Of a stretch of DNA of 42,424 nucleotides, positions 5,370-38,944 are shown in pieces; position 1 is the first letter of the stretch, and every line of letters begins with the position of its first letter. The translations under genes were made by a program, and so were the position numbers. Source of the stretch: Caldifarciminota bacterium. Its GTDB lineage: Bacteria; Hydrothermota; Hydrothermia; WGAB01. The notes beneath the pieces are model-generated. The model worked only from the letters and a program-made list of their open reading frames with translations. It was not told the DNA's origin and did no database searches. The DNA lies in NCBI GenBank assembly GCA_027069855.1, contig JALXEF010000134.1, positions 1 to 42,424 of the forward strand. Direction: 5' to 3'.

Positions 5370-5392
5370 CCTCATACCAGGAGGTGATACCT

Positions 5393-5962
5393 GTGATTGA
5401 GATCCGGATCCACGGCCGGGGGGGTCAGGGAGGCGTGGTCGCCTCCGAAATCCTGGCCAAGGCCTTCTTTAAAGAGGGCAAATATGTGCAGGCCTTTCCC
5501 CACTTCGGCGTAGAACGTCGGGGCGCTCCGGTGGCCGCCTTTGTGCGTGTCGGAGAGCCCGGCAGCTTCTTCGTGCGCACCAACATCTACGAGCCCGACC
5601 ACATCATCGTGCTGGACCCCACGCTCATCACCGCGGTCAATGTGCTGGAGGGACTCAAGCCCGGGGGCTGGGTGGTGGTGAACTCACCGGCCGAACCCCA
5701 CGAACTGGGCATTCCCGAACAGTACCGGGTGGCCACCGTGGACGCCACCAGCATCGCCATCCAGCACAAACTCGGCTCCAAGACCACGCCCATCGTGAAC
5801 ACCGCCATCCTCGGCGCCTTCGCCCGGGCCTTCGGGGCTCCGTCCCTGGAAACCCTGATCGCGGTCATCCGCGAAGAAGCCCCGGTGAAGCCCGATGAGA
5901 ACGCCGCCGCAGCCCGCGACGCCTACGAACGCACCAAACTCTCGGCGGAGGTACAGGTATGA
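5393..5962 (+). CDS. porG: 2-oxoacid:ferredoxin oxidoreductase, gamma subunit
   Basis: A 189-residue subunit of a pyruvate or related 2-oxoacid:ferredoxin oxidoreductase, which oxidatively decarboxylates a 2-oxoacid to the acyl-CoA and reduces ferredoxin. The family opening IEIRIHGRGGQGGVVASEIL and the later NTAILGAFARAFG segment are clear. I start at GTG 5393 because the near-perfect site AGGAGGTGAT at 5379-5388 is placed correctly for it. The in-frame GTG at 5384 lies inside that site. It is first of four por genes in the order gamma, delta fusion, alpha, beta, and its end overlaps the next start by four bases. Which 2-oxoacid is used cannot be read from the sequence. Confidence 0.92.
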   Translation: MIEIRIHGRGGQGGVVASEILAKAFFKEGKYVQAFPHFGVERRGAPVAAFVRVGEPGSFFVRTNIYEPDHIIVLDPTLITAVNVLEGLKPGGWVVVNSPAEPHELGIPEQYRVATVDATSIAIQHKLGSKTTPIVNTAILGAFARAFGAPSLETLIAVIREEAPVKPDENAAAARDAYERTKLSAEVQV

Positions 5963-7644
5963 GCAACAACGGCAACCGCTGGGACCCCAAGAAGTTCAAG
6001 GCCGGGGAGATCCCGGACACCTCGGTCACCCTCACCGACTCCCTGAACAACAAAACCGGCTCCTGGCGCAGCATGAAGCCGGTCATCGAAGACAAGTACG
6101 CCCCCTGCATCAAGGCCTGCCCCACCAACACCCTCATTCCCCAGTACTTTGACCAGTTGATCCGCGGCAACCTGGACGCGGCCGGCTGGATCCTGCTGGA
6201 ACACAACCCCATTCCCTCGGTCACCGGCCGCGTGTGTCCCCACCCCTGCGAACTCGGCTGCAACCGCGGCCGGTACGACCAGCCGATCTCCATCCGCGAG
6301 ATTGAGCGATTCGTGGGCGACCACATCCTGGACAAGAAGGGCATCCCGCCCAAGGTGGAAACCGGCAAGCGCGTGGCCGTGGTGGGCAGCGGCCCGGCCG
6401 GCATGTCGGCCGCCTTTTACCTGCGCCGCCGGGGCCACACAGTGGTGGTGTACGAAAAGGAAGAAAAGGGCGGGGGCGTGCTCCGCTACGGCATCCCTGA
6501 GTACCGGTTGCCGAAGAAGATCGTGGACCGCGAGTTCCAGGCCCTGGAGCGCATGGGCGTGCAGTTCAAGTACCGCACCACCGTGGGCAAGGATGTGACG
6601 GTGGAACAACTGCTCCAGGAGTACGATGCGGTGTTCCTGGGCCACGGCGCCATGAAGGAACGGCACATGGGCATCCCCGGCGAAGAGCACTTCCTGTCGG
6701 GCCTGGAGTTCCTGTGGGAGGTGAACCACGGCAACCTGACGCCGCCCGGCAAGAAGGTGGCCGTGATCGGCGGCGGCAACGTGGCCATGGATGTGGCCCG
6801 GGCCCTGCTCCGGCTCGGCGCCGAGCCCATCGTGCTGTACCGCCGCACCGAGAAGGAGATGCCCGCCCTCAAGGAAGAGGTGGAACGCGCCCTGGAAGAC
6901 GGCATTGAGTTCCGGTTCCTCACCCAGCCCGTGGCCGCCCGCAAGGAAAACGGCAAAATCATTCTCACCTGCGTGAAGATGCAACTCGGCGAGCGCGACC
7001 GCTCCGGCCGCCCGCGGCCCGTTCCCGTGGAAGGCTCCGAACACGACCTGGAGTTCGACGCCGTGGTGGCCGCCATCGGCGAGTATGTGGACACCTCGTT
7101 CCTGCCCAAGGAGGCCCTGGACAAGGACGGCTGGCTCGTGGCCGACAGGAAAACCGGCCGCACGCCGGTCAAGGGCCTGTACGCCGGCGGCGACGCCGTG
7201 CTCGGCCCGGCCACCGTGGTGGAAGCCGTGGGCATGGGCCGCCGCGCCGCCGAAGCCATTGACGCCTACCTCAACGGCGTGGAAGACTACAAGCCCGCAC
7301 CACTGCCCCGTACCGTGTCCTTCAAGTACATCATGACCGAGTACTTCCCCAAGGCCCCGCGGGTGGAGGTGCCCGAACTTCCCGTAGAGGAGCGCATCAA
7401 GGACTACTTCAAGGAAGAGGTGCTGGGCTACGACCTGGACCGTGCCGTAAAGGAGGCGCTGCGCTGCTTCTCCTGCGGCCACTGCAACAGCTGCGGCAAC
7501 TGCTATGTGTTCTGCCCGGACTACGCCATCAAGTGGGTGGACGACAAGCCGGTGGTGGACTACGACTACTGCAAGGGCTGCGGCATCTGCGCGCAGGAGT
7601 GCCCGCGCGGCATCATCACCATGGAATTTGAACGGCTGTTCTGA
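5959..7644 (+). CDS. GltD-like flavoprotein fused to ferredoxin-type delta subunit
   Basis: A 561-residue two-part protein. Residues 1-470 look like the small subunit of glutamate synthase or NfnB. N-terminal cysteines for iron-sulfur clusters sit at about 50, 54, 93, 97 and 101. An FAD site VGSGPAG lies near 142-148, and an NAD(P) site VIGGGNVAMDVARALLRLG near 270. Residues 500-561 are a two-cluster ferredoxin with CxxCxxCxxxC at about 509-519 and 538-548, plus an extra CxxC at 503-506. In archaeal-type enzymes the delta subunit is only the ferredoxin. Here it is joined to a pyridine-nucleotide flavoprotein and sits between the gamma and alpha genes. It probably passes electrons between the oxidoreductase and NAD(P)H or ferredoxin; the direction is inference. 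Confidence 0.88.
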   Translation: MSNNGNRWDPKKFKAGEIPDTSVTLTDSLNNKTGSWRSMKPVIEDKYAPCIKACPTNTLIPQYFDQLIRGNLDAAGWILLEHNPIPSVTGRVCPHPCELGCNRGRYDQPISIREIERFVGDHILDKKGIPPKVETGKRVAVVGSGPAGMSAAFYLRRRGHTVVVYEKEEKGGGVLRYGIPEYRLPKKIVDREFQALERMGVQFKYRTTVGKDVTVEQLLQEYDAVFLGHGAMKERHMGIPGEEHFLSGLEFLWEVNHGNLTPPGKKVAVIGGGNVAMDVARALLRLGAEPIVLYRRTEKEMPALKEEVERALEDGIEFRFLTQPVAARKENGKIILTCVKMQLGERDRSGRPRPVPVEGSEHDLEFDAVVAAIGEYVDTSFLPKEALDKDGWLVADRKTGRTPVKGLYAGGDAVLGPATVVEAVGMGRRAAEAIDAYLNGVEDYKPAPLPRTVSFKYIMTEYFPKAPRVEVPELPVEERIKDYFKEEVLGYDLDRAVKEALRCFSCGHCNSCGNCYVFCPDYAIKWVDDKPVVDYDYCKGCGICAQECPRGIITMEFERLF

Positions 7645-7655
7645 GGAGGCAGGCC

Positions 7656-8831
7656 ATGAAACTTCTGGAAAACAGCACCTATACGGTTCTCAAGGGCAAC
7701 CACGCCGTCTCCGTGGGAGCCAAACTGGCCCGGGTGGAGGTGATTTCCGCCTATCCGATCACCCCGCAAACCACCATCGTGGAGCTCCTGTCGGAGATGG
7801 TGGCGAGCGGCGAGCTCCGGGCCCGGTTCATCACCGTGGAATCGGAACACTCGGCTATGGCCGGGTGCATCGGTGCGTCGCTGGCCGGCGCCCGGGCCTT
7901 CACCGCCACTTCGGCCCAGGGCCTGGCCCTGATGCACGAAATGCTCCACTGGGCCGCCGGTGCCCGCGCGCCCATCGTCATGGCCAATGTGAACCGGGCC
8001 ATGGCCCCGCCATGGTCCATCTGGACCGAGCAAACCGACTCCCTGTCCCAGCGGGATACCGGCTGGATGCAGATCTACAACGAGTCCAACCAGGAGGCCC
8101 TGGACTCGGTGATCCTGGCCTATAAGGTGGCCGAGCAGGTGCGCGTGCCGGCCATGATTGTGCTGGACGCCTTCATCCTGTCGCACACCTCCGAGCCCGT
8201 GGAAGTGTATCCCCAGGAGGTCGTGGACGCCTACCTGCCTCCCTACGAGAACCCCAACGCTCTGAACCTGGAGCACCCCCACGCCATCGGCAGCCTGGCC
8301 GACCCCAATGTGTACATGGAGTTCCGCTACAAACTGCAAAAGGCCCACGAGGAGGCCCTTCGGGTGTTCAAGGAAGAAGGGCAGCGCTTCAAGGAGTACT
8401 TCGGCCGGGCCTACGACACCCTGGAAGCCTTCTACCTGGACGATGCCGACTATGTGCTGGTGACCGCCGGCAGCATGACCTCCACGGCCAAGTACACGGT
8501 GGCGCAACTCCGCGAGAAGGGCGAGAAGGTGGGCATCCTGAAGATCCGCCTGTTCCGTCCCTTCCCCTTTGAGGATGTCCGCAACGCCCTGCGGGGCCGC
8601 AAGAAGGTGGCGGTGATCGACCGCAACATCTCCTTCGGCCATTCCGGCATCTTCTACTCCGAAATCAAAAGCGCGCTGTACCGGGATTCCGGTGCGCCGC
8701 CCGTGTTCGGTTACATCGCCGGCCTCGGCGGCCGGGATGTGCGCCCCAACGACATCGTGGAGATCTACGAAGACCTGAAACAGCGGGAAGAACCCGCCGA
8801 ACCCATCCTCTGGAAGGGGGTGCGAGTATGA
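7656..8831 (+). CDS. porA: 2-oxoacid:ferredoxin oxidoreductase, alpha subunit
   Basis: A 391-residue alpha subunit matching the PorA family. It has the N-terminal pyrimidine-binding domain with AYPITPQTTIVELLSE and the glutamate in TVESEHSAMAGCIGASLAGARAFTATSAQGL, which in the family activates the thiamine diphosphate held by the beta subunit. The C-terminal half has the transketolase-C-like segment VLVTAGSMTSTAKYTVAQLR. GAGGAG lies a few bases before ATG 7656. Its end overlaps the beta gene by four bases, so the two are probably made in equal amounts. Confidence 0.93.
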   Translation: MKLLENSTYTVLKGNHAVSVGAKLARVEVISAYPITPQTTIVELLSEMVASGELRARFITVESEHSAMAGCIGASLAGARAFTATSAQGLALMHEMLHWAAGARAPIVMANVNRAMAPPWSIWTEQTDSLSQRDTGWMQIYNESNQEALDSVILAYKVAEQVRVPAMIVLDAFILSHTSEPVEVYPQEVVDAYLPPYENPNALNLEHPHAIGSLADPNVYMEFRYKLQKAHEEALRVFKEEGQRFKEYFGRAYDTLEAFYLDDADYVLVTAGSMTSTAKYTVAQLREKGEKVGILKIRLFRPFPFEDVRNALRGRKKVAVIDRNISFGHSGIFYSEIKSALYRDSGAPPVFGYIAGLGGRDVRPNDIVEIYEDLKQREEPAEPILWKGVRV

Positions 8832-9763
8832 CCTGGTGGTGGAAAGAGGTTGACAATCAGACCGATCTTTTGAACCCTGGACACCTGGCCTGCCAGGGCT
8901 GTGGAGCCACAGTGGCCATGCGGCTCGCCCTCAAGGGGCTCGGCAACCGGGTGATGGCCACGATCCCGGCCTGCTGCTGGACCATCATTGACGGCGCCTG
9001 GCCGAACCACGCCCTCAAGATCCCCCTGATGCATACGGCCTTTGAAACCGCGGCCATCGCGGCCTCGGGCATCCGGGCCGCCCTGGATGTCAAGGGCGAG
9101 GAGGATGTCACCGTCATGGCCTGGGCCGGCGACGGCGGCACCTTTGACATCGGACTGCAGGCCCTTTCCGGTGCGGCCGAACGCAACGAGAACATCATCT
9201 ATGTGACCTACGACAACGAGGCCTACATGAACACCGGCATCCAGCGCTCCAGTGCCACCCCCTACGGTGCCTGGACCACCACCACACCGGTGAAACATCC
9301 GGAGAGCCGCCCCAAGAAGAACATCATGGAGATCATGGCGGCCCACCGCATTCCCTATGCGGCCACGGCCACCATCGCCTTCCCCGACGACTTCGTGCGC
9401 AAGTTCCGCAAGGCCAAAGACATCGTGGGCATGCGGTTCTTCCACATCCTCTCGCCCTGTCCGCCGGGCTGGAAGATCCCCTCGGACATGTCGGTGAAGG
9501 TGGCCCGGATGGCCGTGGAAACCAAGGTGTTCCCGCTGTACGAGATTGAGGACGGCGAACGGGTGACCATCAACTACTGGCCCGAGGGCCGGCCGGTGCG
9601 GGACTACCTCATGATGCAGGGCCGGTTCAAGCACCTGACCGACGAGCAGATTGAGCACATCCAGCAGTTCGTGGACCACCAGTGGAAACGCCTGGTCCAC
9701 CTGCACGAACTCACCCACGGCTCCCTGCCCGAAGAGGCCCAGGCCACGCTAACCTCCCGATAA
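8828..9763 (+). CDS. porB: 2-oxoacid:ferredoxin oxidoreductase, beta subunit (thiamine diphosphate binding)
   Basis: A 311-residue beta subunit, which binds thiamine diphosphate and one [4Fe-4S] cluster. The diphosphate/metal motif GDGGTFDIGLQA and the YDNEAYMNTGIQRS segment are typical. Candidate cluster cysteines are in HLACQGCGA near the N-terminus, PACCW, and the later SPCPPGW. The motif TPYGAWTTTTP is also standard. It is the last gene of the nuo-por run and is followed by a strong hairpin. The ATG overlaps the stop of the alpha gene. Confidence 0.94.
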   Translation: MTWWWKEVDNQTDLLNPGHLACQGCGATVAMRLALKGLGNRVMATIPACCWTIIDGAWPNHALKIPLMHTAFETAAIAASGIRAALDVKGEEDVTVMAWAGDGGTFDIGLQALSGAAERNENIIYVTYDNEAYMNTGIQRSSATPYGAWTTTTPVKHPESRPKKNIMEIMAAHRIPYAATATIAFPDDFVRKFRKAKDIVGMRFFHILSPCPPGWKIPSDMSVKVARMAVETKVFPLYEIEDGERVTINYWPEGRPVRDYLMMQGRFKHLTDEQIEHIQQFVDHQWKRLVHLHELTHGSLPEEAQATLTSR

Positions 9764-35593: not shown

Positions 35594-35971
35594 ATGGCTA
35601 TGGTGGATGTCAACGCTGTCGCCGCCAAGGGCGAGGATGTGCTGAAGGAGTTCGTAACCAAGATGGGCCTGGAAGGGGCCATCGTGGCCTCCAGCGAAGG
35701 CCTGGAAATCGTGCACTACTTCGTGGCCAACATGGATACGGACATCATCGCCGCGGAGGCGGCGTCCGTGCTTTCCGCGGTGCAGGGTTTCCTGGCCGAC
35801 GCGAATAAGGGGAACCTCCACGAAATCATTACCAAGGCCGACAACGGCTATGTGGCAGTCATGGCCTTGGGAGGCGATGTGGTGCTGGCCGTCATGGCGC
35901 CCCAAACTCAGAAGCTGGGAGTCCTTACAATCGCCATGAGGCAACTGGCAAGCAAACTCCAGTCTCTTTGA
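35594..35971 (+). CDS. Roadblock/LC7 domain protein (MglB-like)
   Basis: A 125-residue protein with a single Roadblock fold: EGAIVASSEGLEIVHYFVA, then an amphipathic helix ADMDT-type DIIAAEAASVLSAVQGFLADA, then EIITKADNGYVAVMALGGDVVLAVMA. In bacteria such proteins act with small Ras-like GTPases such as MglA, or bind other regulators. No GTPase is in the window. The ribosome site AGGAGGTG is very strong, which suggests high expression. It is followed 36 bases later by a 69-residue protein gene and an intrinsic terminator. Confidence 0.8.
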   Translation: MAMVDVNAVAAKGEDVLKEFVTKMGLEGAIVASSEGLEIVHYFVANMDTDIIAAEAASVLSAVQGFLADANKGNLHEIITKADNGYVAVMALGGDVVLAVMAPQTQKLGVLTIAMRQLASKLQSL

Positions 35972-36285: not shown

Positions 36286-37623
36286 TTACATCTTCGCCGA
36301 GAAGGTTTCCACCTTCTCCCGCATGATCGTGCCCAGGTTCTGCAGTTCCTGGAGCACGGGCTCGTAGATCTCCGGATGGGTGGGAATCCAAACACCCGTG
36401 AGGGACACCCGGCCCTCCAGGATCAGCCGGGCGGCGATGGCGGCCGGCAGGGAAACCGTGCGGGCCACGGCCGTTTCCTTGCCCACCACGCCGAAGTCCA
36501 GGAGTACCGATTCGTGCCGCTCCCGGCGGCCGTCTGGCAACTCAGCCACCACAATGTCCTGGAGGATCACCATATCCCGCTCGCCCTCGCGGTACTTCAG
36601 TTTCTGGAGCATGAGGTGCAACAGGAGATCCAGGGGCGTGCGGGCGTCCTCGGGCACCGGGGCCTCCTCCAGCAGCCCCAGCCAGGCGAAGCGTTCGATC
36701 ACCGGTGCATCCTCGGGCACACCGAGCCGCCGGGCCAGCGCCCGCCGCAGGTCCTCCTGGGGGCTAACCTCCAGTTTCCGCCGCAGGAACCCTGCGTAGG
36801 TCAGGCCCTGGGGGTCTATGGTTTCCTCTTCCGTCAGGTACCCGAGGTGCGCCAAAGCGGCCATGGACTCGGCCCATCCGGGCCAGCGCACCGTGCCCCG
36901 GAACAGGGTGTGCACCTCGGGAATGCGGTAAAGATCGCGGTACTGCAGCGAATCCCGGTTCGGGTACACCTCCACGGTGCCCACATCCTCCAGGGTGTGG
37001 GTTTCCACATGGTCAAAGATCTCCACCCCCTTCACCTCGTATATGGTGCCGTTCCTCAGGAACCGGGCCGCGCGGGTGGAGGCCTGCAGCACCCCCTTCG
37101 GACTCCAGGAAAACTTGTAGCCCCAGGGGTTGTCGTTGGCCTCCGGCGCCGGCAGGGCGCCGCAGTGGGACTCAAACGAGAGGATCCGCGCCCCCTGGGC
37201 CCGGTAATGGTCAATGGTGCGCATCGCCGACATGTGGTCAATGCCGGGGTCCAGGCCGATTTCGTTCAACAAGAGCACGCCCCGTTGCCGGGCCTCGGTG
37301 TCCAGGGCCTTCATCTCAGGGCTCACATAGGAGGTGGTCACCAGGGGTTTCCCGAGGTCCAGGCACAATCGGGCCACCTGGACATGAAAGCCGTGGGGCA
37401 ACATGCTAATCACCACATCGTGGTCCTGGATCATGTGGCGCAGGGTGCCCAGGTCGTCGGTGGTCCAGGCGACGGTGCGGCCGCGGGGATGGCCCTGCAC
37501 CATCGCGATGGCCTTCTGCTCGGTGCGCGAAGCCACGGTTACCCCAAAGGGGGTGTGTTCCAGGAGATAGCGCACCATCGGACGGGTCACAAGCCCGGCT
37601 CCCAGTACCAGAGCCTGCTTCAT
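36286..37623 (-). CDS. Saccharopine dehydrogenase, glutamate-forming (LYS9/AASS C-half type)
   Basis: A 445-residue NAD(P)-dependent enzyme that splits saccharopine into glutamate and 2-aminoadipate semialdehyde, or the reverse. VLGAGLVTRPMVRYLLEH is the nucleotide site. The stretches LLNEIGLDPGIDHMSAM, then CGALPAPEANDNPWGYKFSW and SPKGVL, closely follow the SDH half of the animal and plant AASS (LKR/SDH) protein as I remember it. YPNRDSLQY and TLFRGTVRWPGW are further landmarks. The gene starts three bases after the stop of the reductase gene, so the two form an operon. Confidence 0.93.
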   Translation of the reverse strand: MKQALVLGAGLVTRPMVRYLLEHTPFGVTVASRTEQKAIAMVQGHPRGRTVAWTTDDLGTLRHMIQDHDVVISMLPHGFHVQVARLCLDLGKPLVTTSYVSPEMKALDTEARQRGVLLLNEIGLDPGIDHMSAMRTIDHYRAQGARILSFESHCGALPAPEANDNPWGYKFSWSPKGVLQASTRAARFLRNGTIYEVKGVEIFDHVETHTLEDVGTVEVYPNRDSLQYRDLYRIPEVHTLFRGTVRWPGWAESMAALAHLGYLTEEETIDPQGLTYAGFLRRKLEVSPQEDLRRALARRLGVPEDAPVIERFAWLGLLEEAPVPEDARTPLDLLLHLMLQKLKYREGERDMVILQDIVVAELPDGRRERHESVLLDFGVVGKETAVARTVSLPAAIAARLILEGRVSLTGVWIPTHPEIYEPVLQELQNLGTIMREKVETFSAKM

Positions 37624-37626
37624 GGC

Positions 37627-38937
37627 TCACTCCTTTGTCAGAAACGCCTCCATGTAGGTGAACGCAGGTGTGAACTTCCCCCGCAAAAGGATGACCGCCC
37701 GCTTGACTTCGGCAGGCAGGTCCAGGTGTTCAAAGTCCTGGGTGTAATCGGCCCGGGCGATGGCCGGCACATAGGGTTTGAGGGCCTCGCTGAAGGCCCG
37801 GGAGGCGTCGCGGGGCAGTTCCGTGGGCCAGATGTCCACGGCCAGGATCAAGAGCCCCGGCGCATCCAGATCGTCGGTATATTGACCGGTTAGGGGGTCA
37901 TAGACATACCCGGGATGGCCGGGATCACCCCCCTTGATGGTGGCCTCAATGGACCCCTCAATGTCCAGGGTGATGTCACCGATAACCTGCAGTTTGGGGC
38001 GCTCCTGCTGCTGCCACAGGTGCCGCAGGTGCTGCCGGGTGACGAGCTTGGGATACCGTTCTTCCCAGTAGATGCCGTTGACCAGGACCGTGAGGTAAGG
38101 CAAGAACTCGGGCATCCGCGATTCAAAACGCTCGGGATGCTCGTAGAACTCCTGGTCGTGGAAGGGCTTGCCCTCCCGATGCCGATACCGGTCCTTTTTG
38201 CCGAACACCACCTTGTAGATGACCCGGTCGGAGGCGTGGCGGGCCAGGTCGGGCAATTCACCGGGCGAAATCTCCTCGGTGGGCAGGGCCTCCAGGATCT
38301 CCCAGGCTCCGTGGGACACATGGCCGTGGCCGGTGATGCCGATCACCAGGGGCACAAGATCCCGGGGCAGGCCCTCACTGGCAATAGCCTTACCGATCCA
38401 TTCCAGGTCTTCCAGGGCATGGGACAGGGAATAGTACTCAAAGGCGCGGCGAACCCAGGAAAAGGGCGTATCGTGGCCCGAAAGGCGCAGGCGTCGGCCC
38501 AGACCCCACAGGGTGTCGATCATGCCGGCCAGGCCGGCGAACCGCCCGAAAAAGATCAGCCGGTTCCCCTGCTCGTCGGTGATTTTTTCGTAGTCAATGA
38601 GGGTATCCTGGAGTTCCACCAGCCGGCGGAGCATGGGGATGTTCTGCTTCTGGCCCTTGAAGGTGTGGGAGAAGATGACATAGGTTTTGCCGGGTTCCAG
38701 GTACTGGGGCTGGATCTCCTTGATGCCGAAGATCACCGGCACATCCGAGAGGTCCTCCTGGATCCGGGCCCCTGCTCTCTGGTACTCCTCTTCGCGGAAG
38801 ATGCGGCGGGCTGAAGGCTGCACCACCACCTCCAGGTGATGGTTCTGGATCAGATCGCGCACATCGTTGGGGGTCAGCGGGGCCCTCCGTTCCCATTCCC
38901 ACTTGGTTTCCCTGCGAATCCCAATCTTCGCACGCAT
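37627..38937 (-). CDS. Lysine-ketoglutarate reductase (AASS N-half type)
   Basis: A 436-residue enzyme that condenses lysine and 2-oxoglutarate to saccharopine, or the reverse. The N-terminal domain, of the alanine dehydrogenase type, begins KIGIRRETKWEWERRAPLTP, followed by VQPSARRIF and YVIFSHTFKGQKQNIPML, then LIDYEKITDEQG. FFGRFAGLAGMIDTLWGLG and LVNGIYWEERYPKLVT match animal LKR sequences well. I start at ATG 38937, since a promoter candidate puts the RNA start at that codon; ATG 38943 is two codons upstream and neither has a ribosome site. With the downstream gene it gives the complete saccharopine pathway as two proteins. Confidence 0.92.
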   Translation of the reverse strand: MRAKIGIRRETKWEWERRAPLTPNDVRDLIQNHHLEVVVQPSARRIFREEEYQRAGARIQEDLSDVPVIFGIKEIQPQYLEPGKTYVIFSHTFKGQKQNIPMLRRLVELQDTLIDYEKITDEQGNRLIFFGRFAGLAGMIDTLWGLGRRLRLSGHDTPFSWVRRAFEYYSLSHALEDLEWIGKAIASEGLPRDLVPLVIGITGHGHVSHGAWEILEALPTEEISPGELPDLARHASDRVIYKVVFGKKDRYRHREGKPFHDQEFYEHPERFESRMPEFLPYLTVLVNGIYWEERYPKLVTRQHLRHLWQQQERPKLQVIGDITLDIEGSIEATIKGGDPGHPGYVYDPLTGQYTDDLDAPGLLILAVDIWPTELPRDASRAFSEALKPYVPAIARADYTQDFEHLDLPAEVKRAVILLRGKFTPAFTYMEAFLTKE

Positions 38938-38944
38938 GGGCATT

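Follow-up and report, generated by a model that had tools for sequence, protein, structure and literature searches.

Stand-alone genes for an AASS-type reductase and dehydrogenase in a Hydrothermota-type bacterium, most likely serving lysine breakdown

Two adjacent genes of a Hydrothermota-type bacterium encode separate counterparts of the two halves of the fused animal and plant enzyme AASS, a predicted lysine-2-oxoglutarate reductase (LKR) followed by a predicted saccharopine dehydrogenase (SDH). They lie in a stretch of 42,424 nucleotides that was analyzed as a whole (hereafter, the window). With a probability of roughly 0.8, we read the pair as a short operon whose two products act as separate enzymes in lysine breakdown by the saccharopine pathway. 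An earlier inspection of the DNA (hereafter, the original prediction) had noted an AASS-type reductase followed, three bases on, by an AASS-type dehydrogenase. This observation is confirmed by the open reading frames and by database matches, whereas the interpretation attached to it is partly supported.

Organization of the gene pair

The LKR gene (37627..38943, minus strand) encodes a stand-alone protein of 438 aa from an ATG at 38943; position 38937, given as the outer end in the original prediction, corresponds to the second in-frame ATG of this gene (M-P-M). The SDH gene (36286..37623, minus strand) encodes a stand-alone protein of 445 aa from an ATG at 37623, and the spacer between the LKR stop codon and this ATG consists of the three bases GCC (37626-37624). 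The order, LKR and then SDH, is the domain order of fused AASS. Unlike AASS, however, the pair does not form one polypeptide: besides the intervening stop codon, a Shine-Dalgarno-like AAGGAG can be read in the sequence at 37630..37635 (minus strand), within the last codons of LKR and 6 nt ahead of the SDH ATG, so that two separately started proteins are expected.

The divergent upstream neighbor was recognized by eye as an alanyl-tRNA synthetase-like gene; downstream of the pair lie small genes, one of which (35594-35971) appears, also by eye, roadblock-like. No further lysine gene was recognized beside the pair among the neighboring open reading frames of the window. Elsewhere in the window (5384-9763), the list of open reading frames includes four genes resembling an operon for a 2-oxoacid:ferredoxin oxidoreductase, an enzyme that would be in keeping with the breakdown of amino acids.

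Family assignment of the two enzymes

The matches that assign LKR and SDH to their families are far beyond chance. LKR aligns end to end (residues 4-433, about 36% identity, E=2e-79) with the reductase domain of human AASS (8dda), whereas in the same kind of single-sequence search yeast LYS1, the lysine-forming enzyme of the shared superfamily, matches the N-terminal third only (5e-13). With a profile of 48 LKR homologues the gap grows, to 2.9e-132 for the human domain vs 1e-29 for LYS1. The Pfam assignment of LKR is AlaDh_PNT_N. The predicted LKR model (pLDDT 95.5) has human LOR (8e8u) as its top PDB match, with a TM score of 0.90/0.92, compared with 0.63-0.66 for LYS1. Lys75 (38719..38721, minus strand) and His93 (38665..38667, minus strand) of LKR align with Lys77 and His96 of LYS1, which we take to be catalytic, and both are invariant in the alignment of 48 sequences, as are G205, G207 and V209 of the glycine-rich nucleotide motif. 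Judged by these matches and by the model, LKR is a member of the AASS-type lysine-ketoglutarate reductase family, with the corresponding activity predicted. In the reductase domain of human AASS, Ser266 and Arg267 have been tied to NADPH use (PMC9490328). These positions fall in a gapped stretch of the alignment, where LKR of the window reads FGKKD, and the attempt to read the LKR cofactor off them was dropped for this reason.

SDH also matches its relatives end to end, namely yeast LYS9 (4e-87), Magnaporthe LYS3 (1e-84) and the SDH domain of human AASS (4e-77), and both Sacchrp_dh_NADP (74.1 bits) and Sacchrp_dh_C (261.9 bits) are over the Pfam cut-off. By family it is a saccharopine dehydrogenase of the glutamate-forming type and would be expected to have this activity. 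Thus, both proteins match AASS-type enzymes over their full length and are not distant lysine dehydrogenases.

In Rossmann folds, an RT-type motif where the second strand of the nucleotide fold ends goes with NADP and an acidic motif with NAD. At this site, SDH of the window reads ASRT, the fungal enzymes ACRT and the human enzyme GSDM, while GD or AD is found in many SDHs of Bacteroidota and Aminicenantes. This suggests that the ASRT/ACRT group would use NADP, and the GD/AD group, together with the human enzyme, NAD. Across the prokaryotic SDHs (loci L004-L168 and the window), the same split separates NADP-like ASRT or ATRT from NAD-like GD or AD, the latter being mostly from Bacteroidota and Aminicenantes. 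The motif split is a possible marker of pathway direction; the NADP-type motif alone does not decide it.

Breakdown or synthesis of lysine

The source genome (2.14 Mb in 178 contigs, scored 100% complete) lacks recognizable genes of lysine synthesis: neither DapA nor DapF was found in the 178-contig assembly, nor was any HMGL-like protein (control, 14/14), and hence there is no homocitrate synthase. LysX was not over the cut-off in the source genome or in any of 100 related genomes. The absence of DapA and DapF also bears on the peptidoglycan diamine of the source organism, if it has one; the sole cultured WOR-3 strain has been reported to carry DAP-type genes (PMC12285271).

On the breakdown side, the source genome encodes two glutamate dehydrogenases and an acyl-CoA dehydrogenase whose best PDB match reaches 6.5e-144. 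Of its top ten PDB matches, nine are named glutaryl-CoA dehydrogenase and the tenth only acyl-CoA dehydrogenase, which marks it, by sequence, as a clear glutaryl-CoA dehydrogenase. Since the genes of lysine synthesis are absent and glutaryl-CoA dehydrogenase is present, breakdown is favored and is most likely the direction in which the pair runs. The original prediction had left the choice between lysine breakdown and synthesis to a search for biosynthesis genes, and the outcome of this search speaks for the former and against the latter.

In the proposed pathway, LKR would convert lysine and 2-oxoglutarate to saccharopine, from which SDH would form 2-aminoadipate semialdehyde and glutamate, and glutamate dehydrogenase would regenerate 2-oxoglutarate. 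The carbon skeleton would pass from aminoadipate through 2-oxoadipate and glutaryl-CoA to crotonyl-CoA. Lysine would probably be imported from outside and used as fuel.

Two points stand against breakdown. The first is that no ALDH7/AmaB-type semialdehyde dehydrogenase was found in the 178-contig assembly of the source genome. In favor of breakdown, the enzyme for this step, L-piperidine-6-carboxylate (semialdehyde) dehydrogenase, is over the cut-off in three relatives of the same class (G022, G025 and G028), and at loci of the Ignavibacteriota type LKR is immediately preceded by an ALDH7/antiquitin gene. The source genome has four aldehyde dehydrogenases, with no clear semialdehyde candidate among them. 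The best of the three that were scored reaches 387.8 bits against the semialdehyde dehydrogenase family (cut-off 730), and all three were set aside, one as a P5C dehydrogenase and two as better fits to other families; the fourth (L034) was judged by reading only. By eye, there is no obvious lysine gene cluster around the aldehyde dehydrogenase in L031 or around the glutaryl-CoA dehydrogenase.

The missing dehydrogenase would also suit a different fate of lysine, in which the pair feeds the formation of pipecolate or a proline-like osmolyte instead of full breakdown. In plants, animals and bacteria, the saccharopine pathway has been connected to pipecolate and to osmotic stress (PMC7253579). 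However, the glutaryl-CoA and glutamate dehydrogenases are present, and no gene specific for pipecolate was recognized next to the pair, so we regard this fate as improbable.

The second point is the NADP-type motif of SDH. The protein resembles LYS9 and LYS3 over its full length and shares their RT cofactor motif, and fungi run this NADP enzyme toward lysine synthesis. By analogy, the pair might run the fungal way, from aminoadipate semialdehyde and glutamate to lysine, and replace the DAP pathway. The distribution of DapA in the class (40 genomes, the source genome included) would agree with such a replacement: LKR and DapA never occur together, DapA being missing from all 12 LKR-bearing genomes and present in 20 of the 28 without LKR. 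The exclusion tracks families, though, and is not independent evidence, as it may be due to inheritance; moreover, LKR and DapA coexist in 19 genomes of the wider phylum. The fungal direction also lacks a source of aminoadipate, given that HMGL-like proteins are missing from the source genome and from 12 of 12 LKR-bearing genomes of the class, and both the LysX result and the glutaryl-CoA dehydrogenase argue against it. We therefore hold lysine synthesis by the pair to be very improbable in the source organism. For the class, we give slightly less credence still to the proposal that the pair stands in for the absent DAP pathway and makes lysine through a fungal, NADP-type SDH, with aminoadipate coming from an unrecognized source. 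Lysine breakdown is the reading retained below.

Distribution of the pair in prokaryotes

The original prediction held that this form of the enzymes is rare in bacteria, a claim that does not survive a wider comparison. LKR is present in 41 of 100 related genomes of the phylum, and the set of genomes with strong SDH matches is almost the same; where LKR is present but a full SDH is missing, the assembly is mostly fragmented or incomplete. LKR of one relative from the class (G011; L008) is identical to that of a Hydrothermota record (L147), which makes the WOR-3/Hydrothermota group the most likely origin of the window. Across 84,980 species genomes, a scan yielded at least 578 confirmed LKR loci, and the phyla among the matches listed include Bacteroidota, Aminicenantes, Acidobacteria, Myxococcota, Chloroflexi, Thermoplasmatota, and Heimdall- and Hodarchaeota. 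At 109 examined loci, SDH directly follows LKR in 74 and lies further downstream in 13; it is upstream in three, and none was found in the available stretch in 19. LKR followed by SDH is thus the general prokaryotic operon order, and no fusion of the two came to light. The pair of the window is real but, given how often bacteria and archaea carry such a pairing, unsurprising.

Several loci carry additional genes. In a deltaproteobacterial contig (L166:336-2892), two SDH-like genes lie in tandem upstream of LKR. At four loci of one family of the class (L043:9948-13158, L044, L045 and L049), SDH is followed by a two-gene FAD/iron-sulphur amino-acid dehydrogenase that is proline- or opine-oxidase-like. 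In seven loci (L059:12854-14143 and six others, Thermoplasmatota included), no more than a few kb separate LKR from a class III aminotransferase-like gene that closely resembles an archaeal gene annotated as 4-aminobutyrate aminotransferase.

The type itself has been described. Judging by their titles, as cited in PMC9490328/PMC7253579, Serrano et al. (2012, FEBS Lett 586:905) reported LKR and SDH of the saccharopine pathway in bacteria and their relation to the plant and animal enzymes, and Neshich et al. (2013, ISME J 7:2400) dealt with the saccharopine pathway in bacteria, so the pathway appears to be shared with the pair described here. As this kinship was published in 2012-2013, the two proteins of the window are ordinary members of an already known type, although their Hydrothermota-type lineage may have been outside the earlier sampling.

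Relation to the eukaryotic fused enzyme

It had also been proposed that the pair may show how the fused eukaryotic enzyme arose. In its strongest form, the window would hold a close and still extant relative of the two genes whose fusion produced AASS, as the shared order and domain types could indicate. The order is general across prokaryotes, however, and phylogeny with the eukaryotic enzymes did not place the pair beside them. In the SDH tree, the human, yeast and Magnaporthe proteins form one clade (support 99) apart from all 38 prokaryotic sequences, and SDH of the window groups with that of its family mate G001 (99). The LKR tree contains a single eukaryotic sequence, the human one, on a very long branch, and its nearest neighbor is a Thermoplasmata archaeon, without starred support; among the matches listed, the Thermoplasmata LKR at L091:5001-6281 is also the nearest to human AASS LOR (41% identity). 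A clade of human and window LKR is not rejected by the AU test (p 0.65), but little is rejected by it because of the one long human branch, and since several other groupings pass as well, the result is no evidence of descent. The attempt to place eukaryotic LKR by tree was dropped on these grounds. We regard descent of AASS from a close relative of this pair as extremely unlikely.

The notion that the pair is one stop codon away from fusion was likewise discarded: LKR and SDH of the window share a reading frame, and so do 26 of the 74 close pairs, near the chance expectation of about one third. None of these 74 pairs is fused. The two-gene form is common across bacteria and archaea alike, so no special intermediate has to be assumed for the fused enzyme; the joining of two already adjacent genes would suffice to produce AASS.

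Implications

For the enzyme family, the split of SDHs into NADP-type and NAD-type motifs offers a cheap, testable lead on the direction of the pathway. For the organism, the gene content points to a WOR-3/Hydrothermota-type lineage that relies on lysine from outside and is able to burn it.
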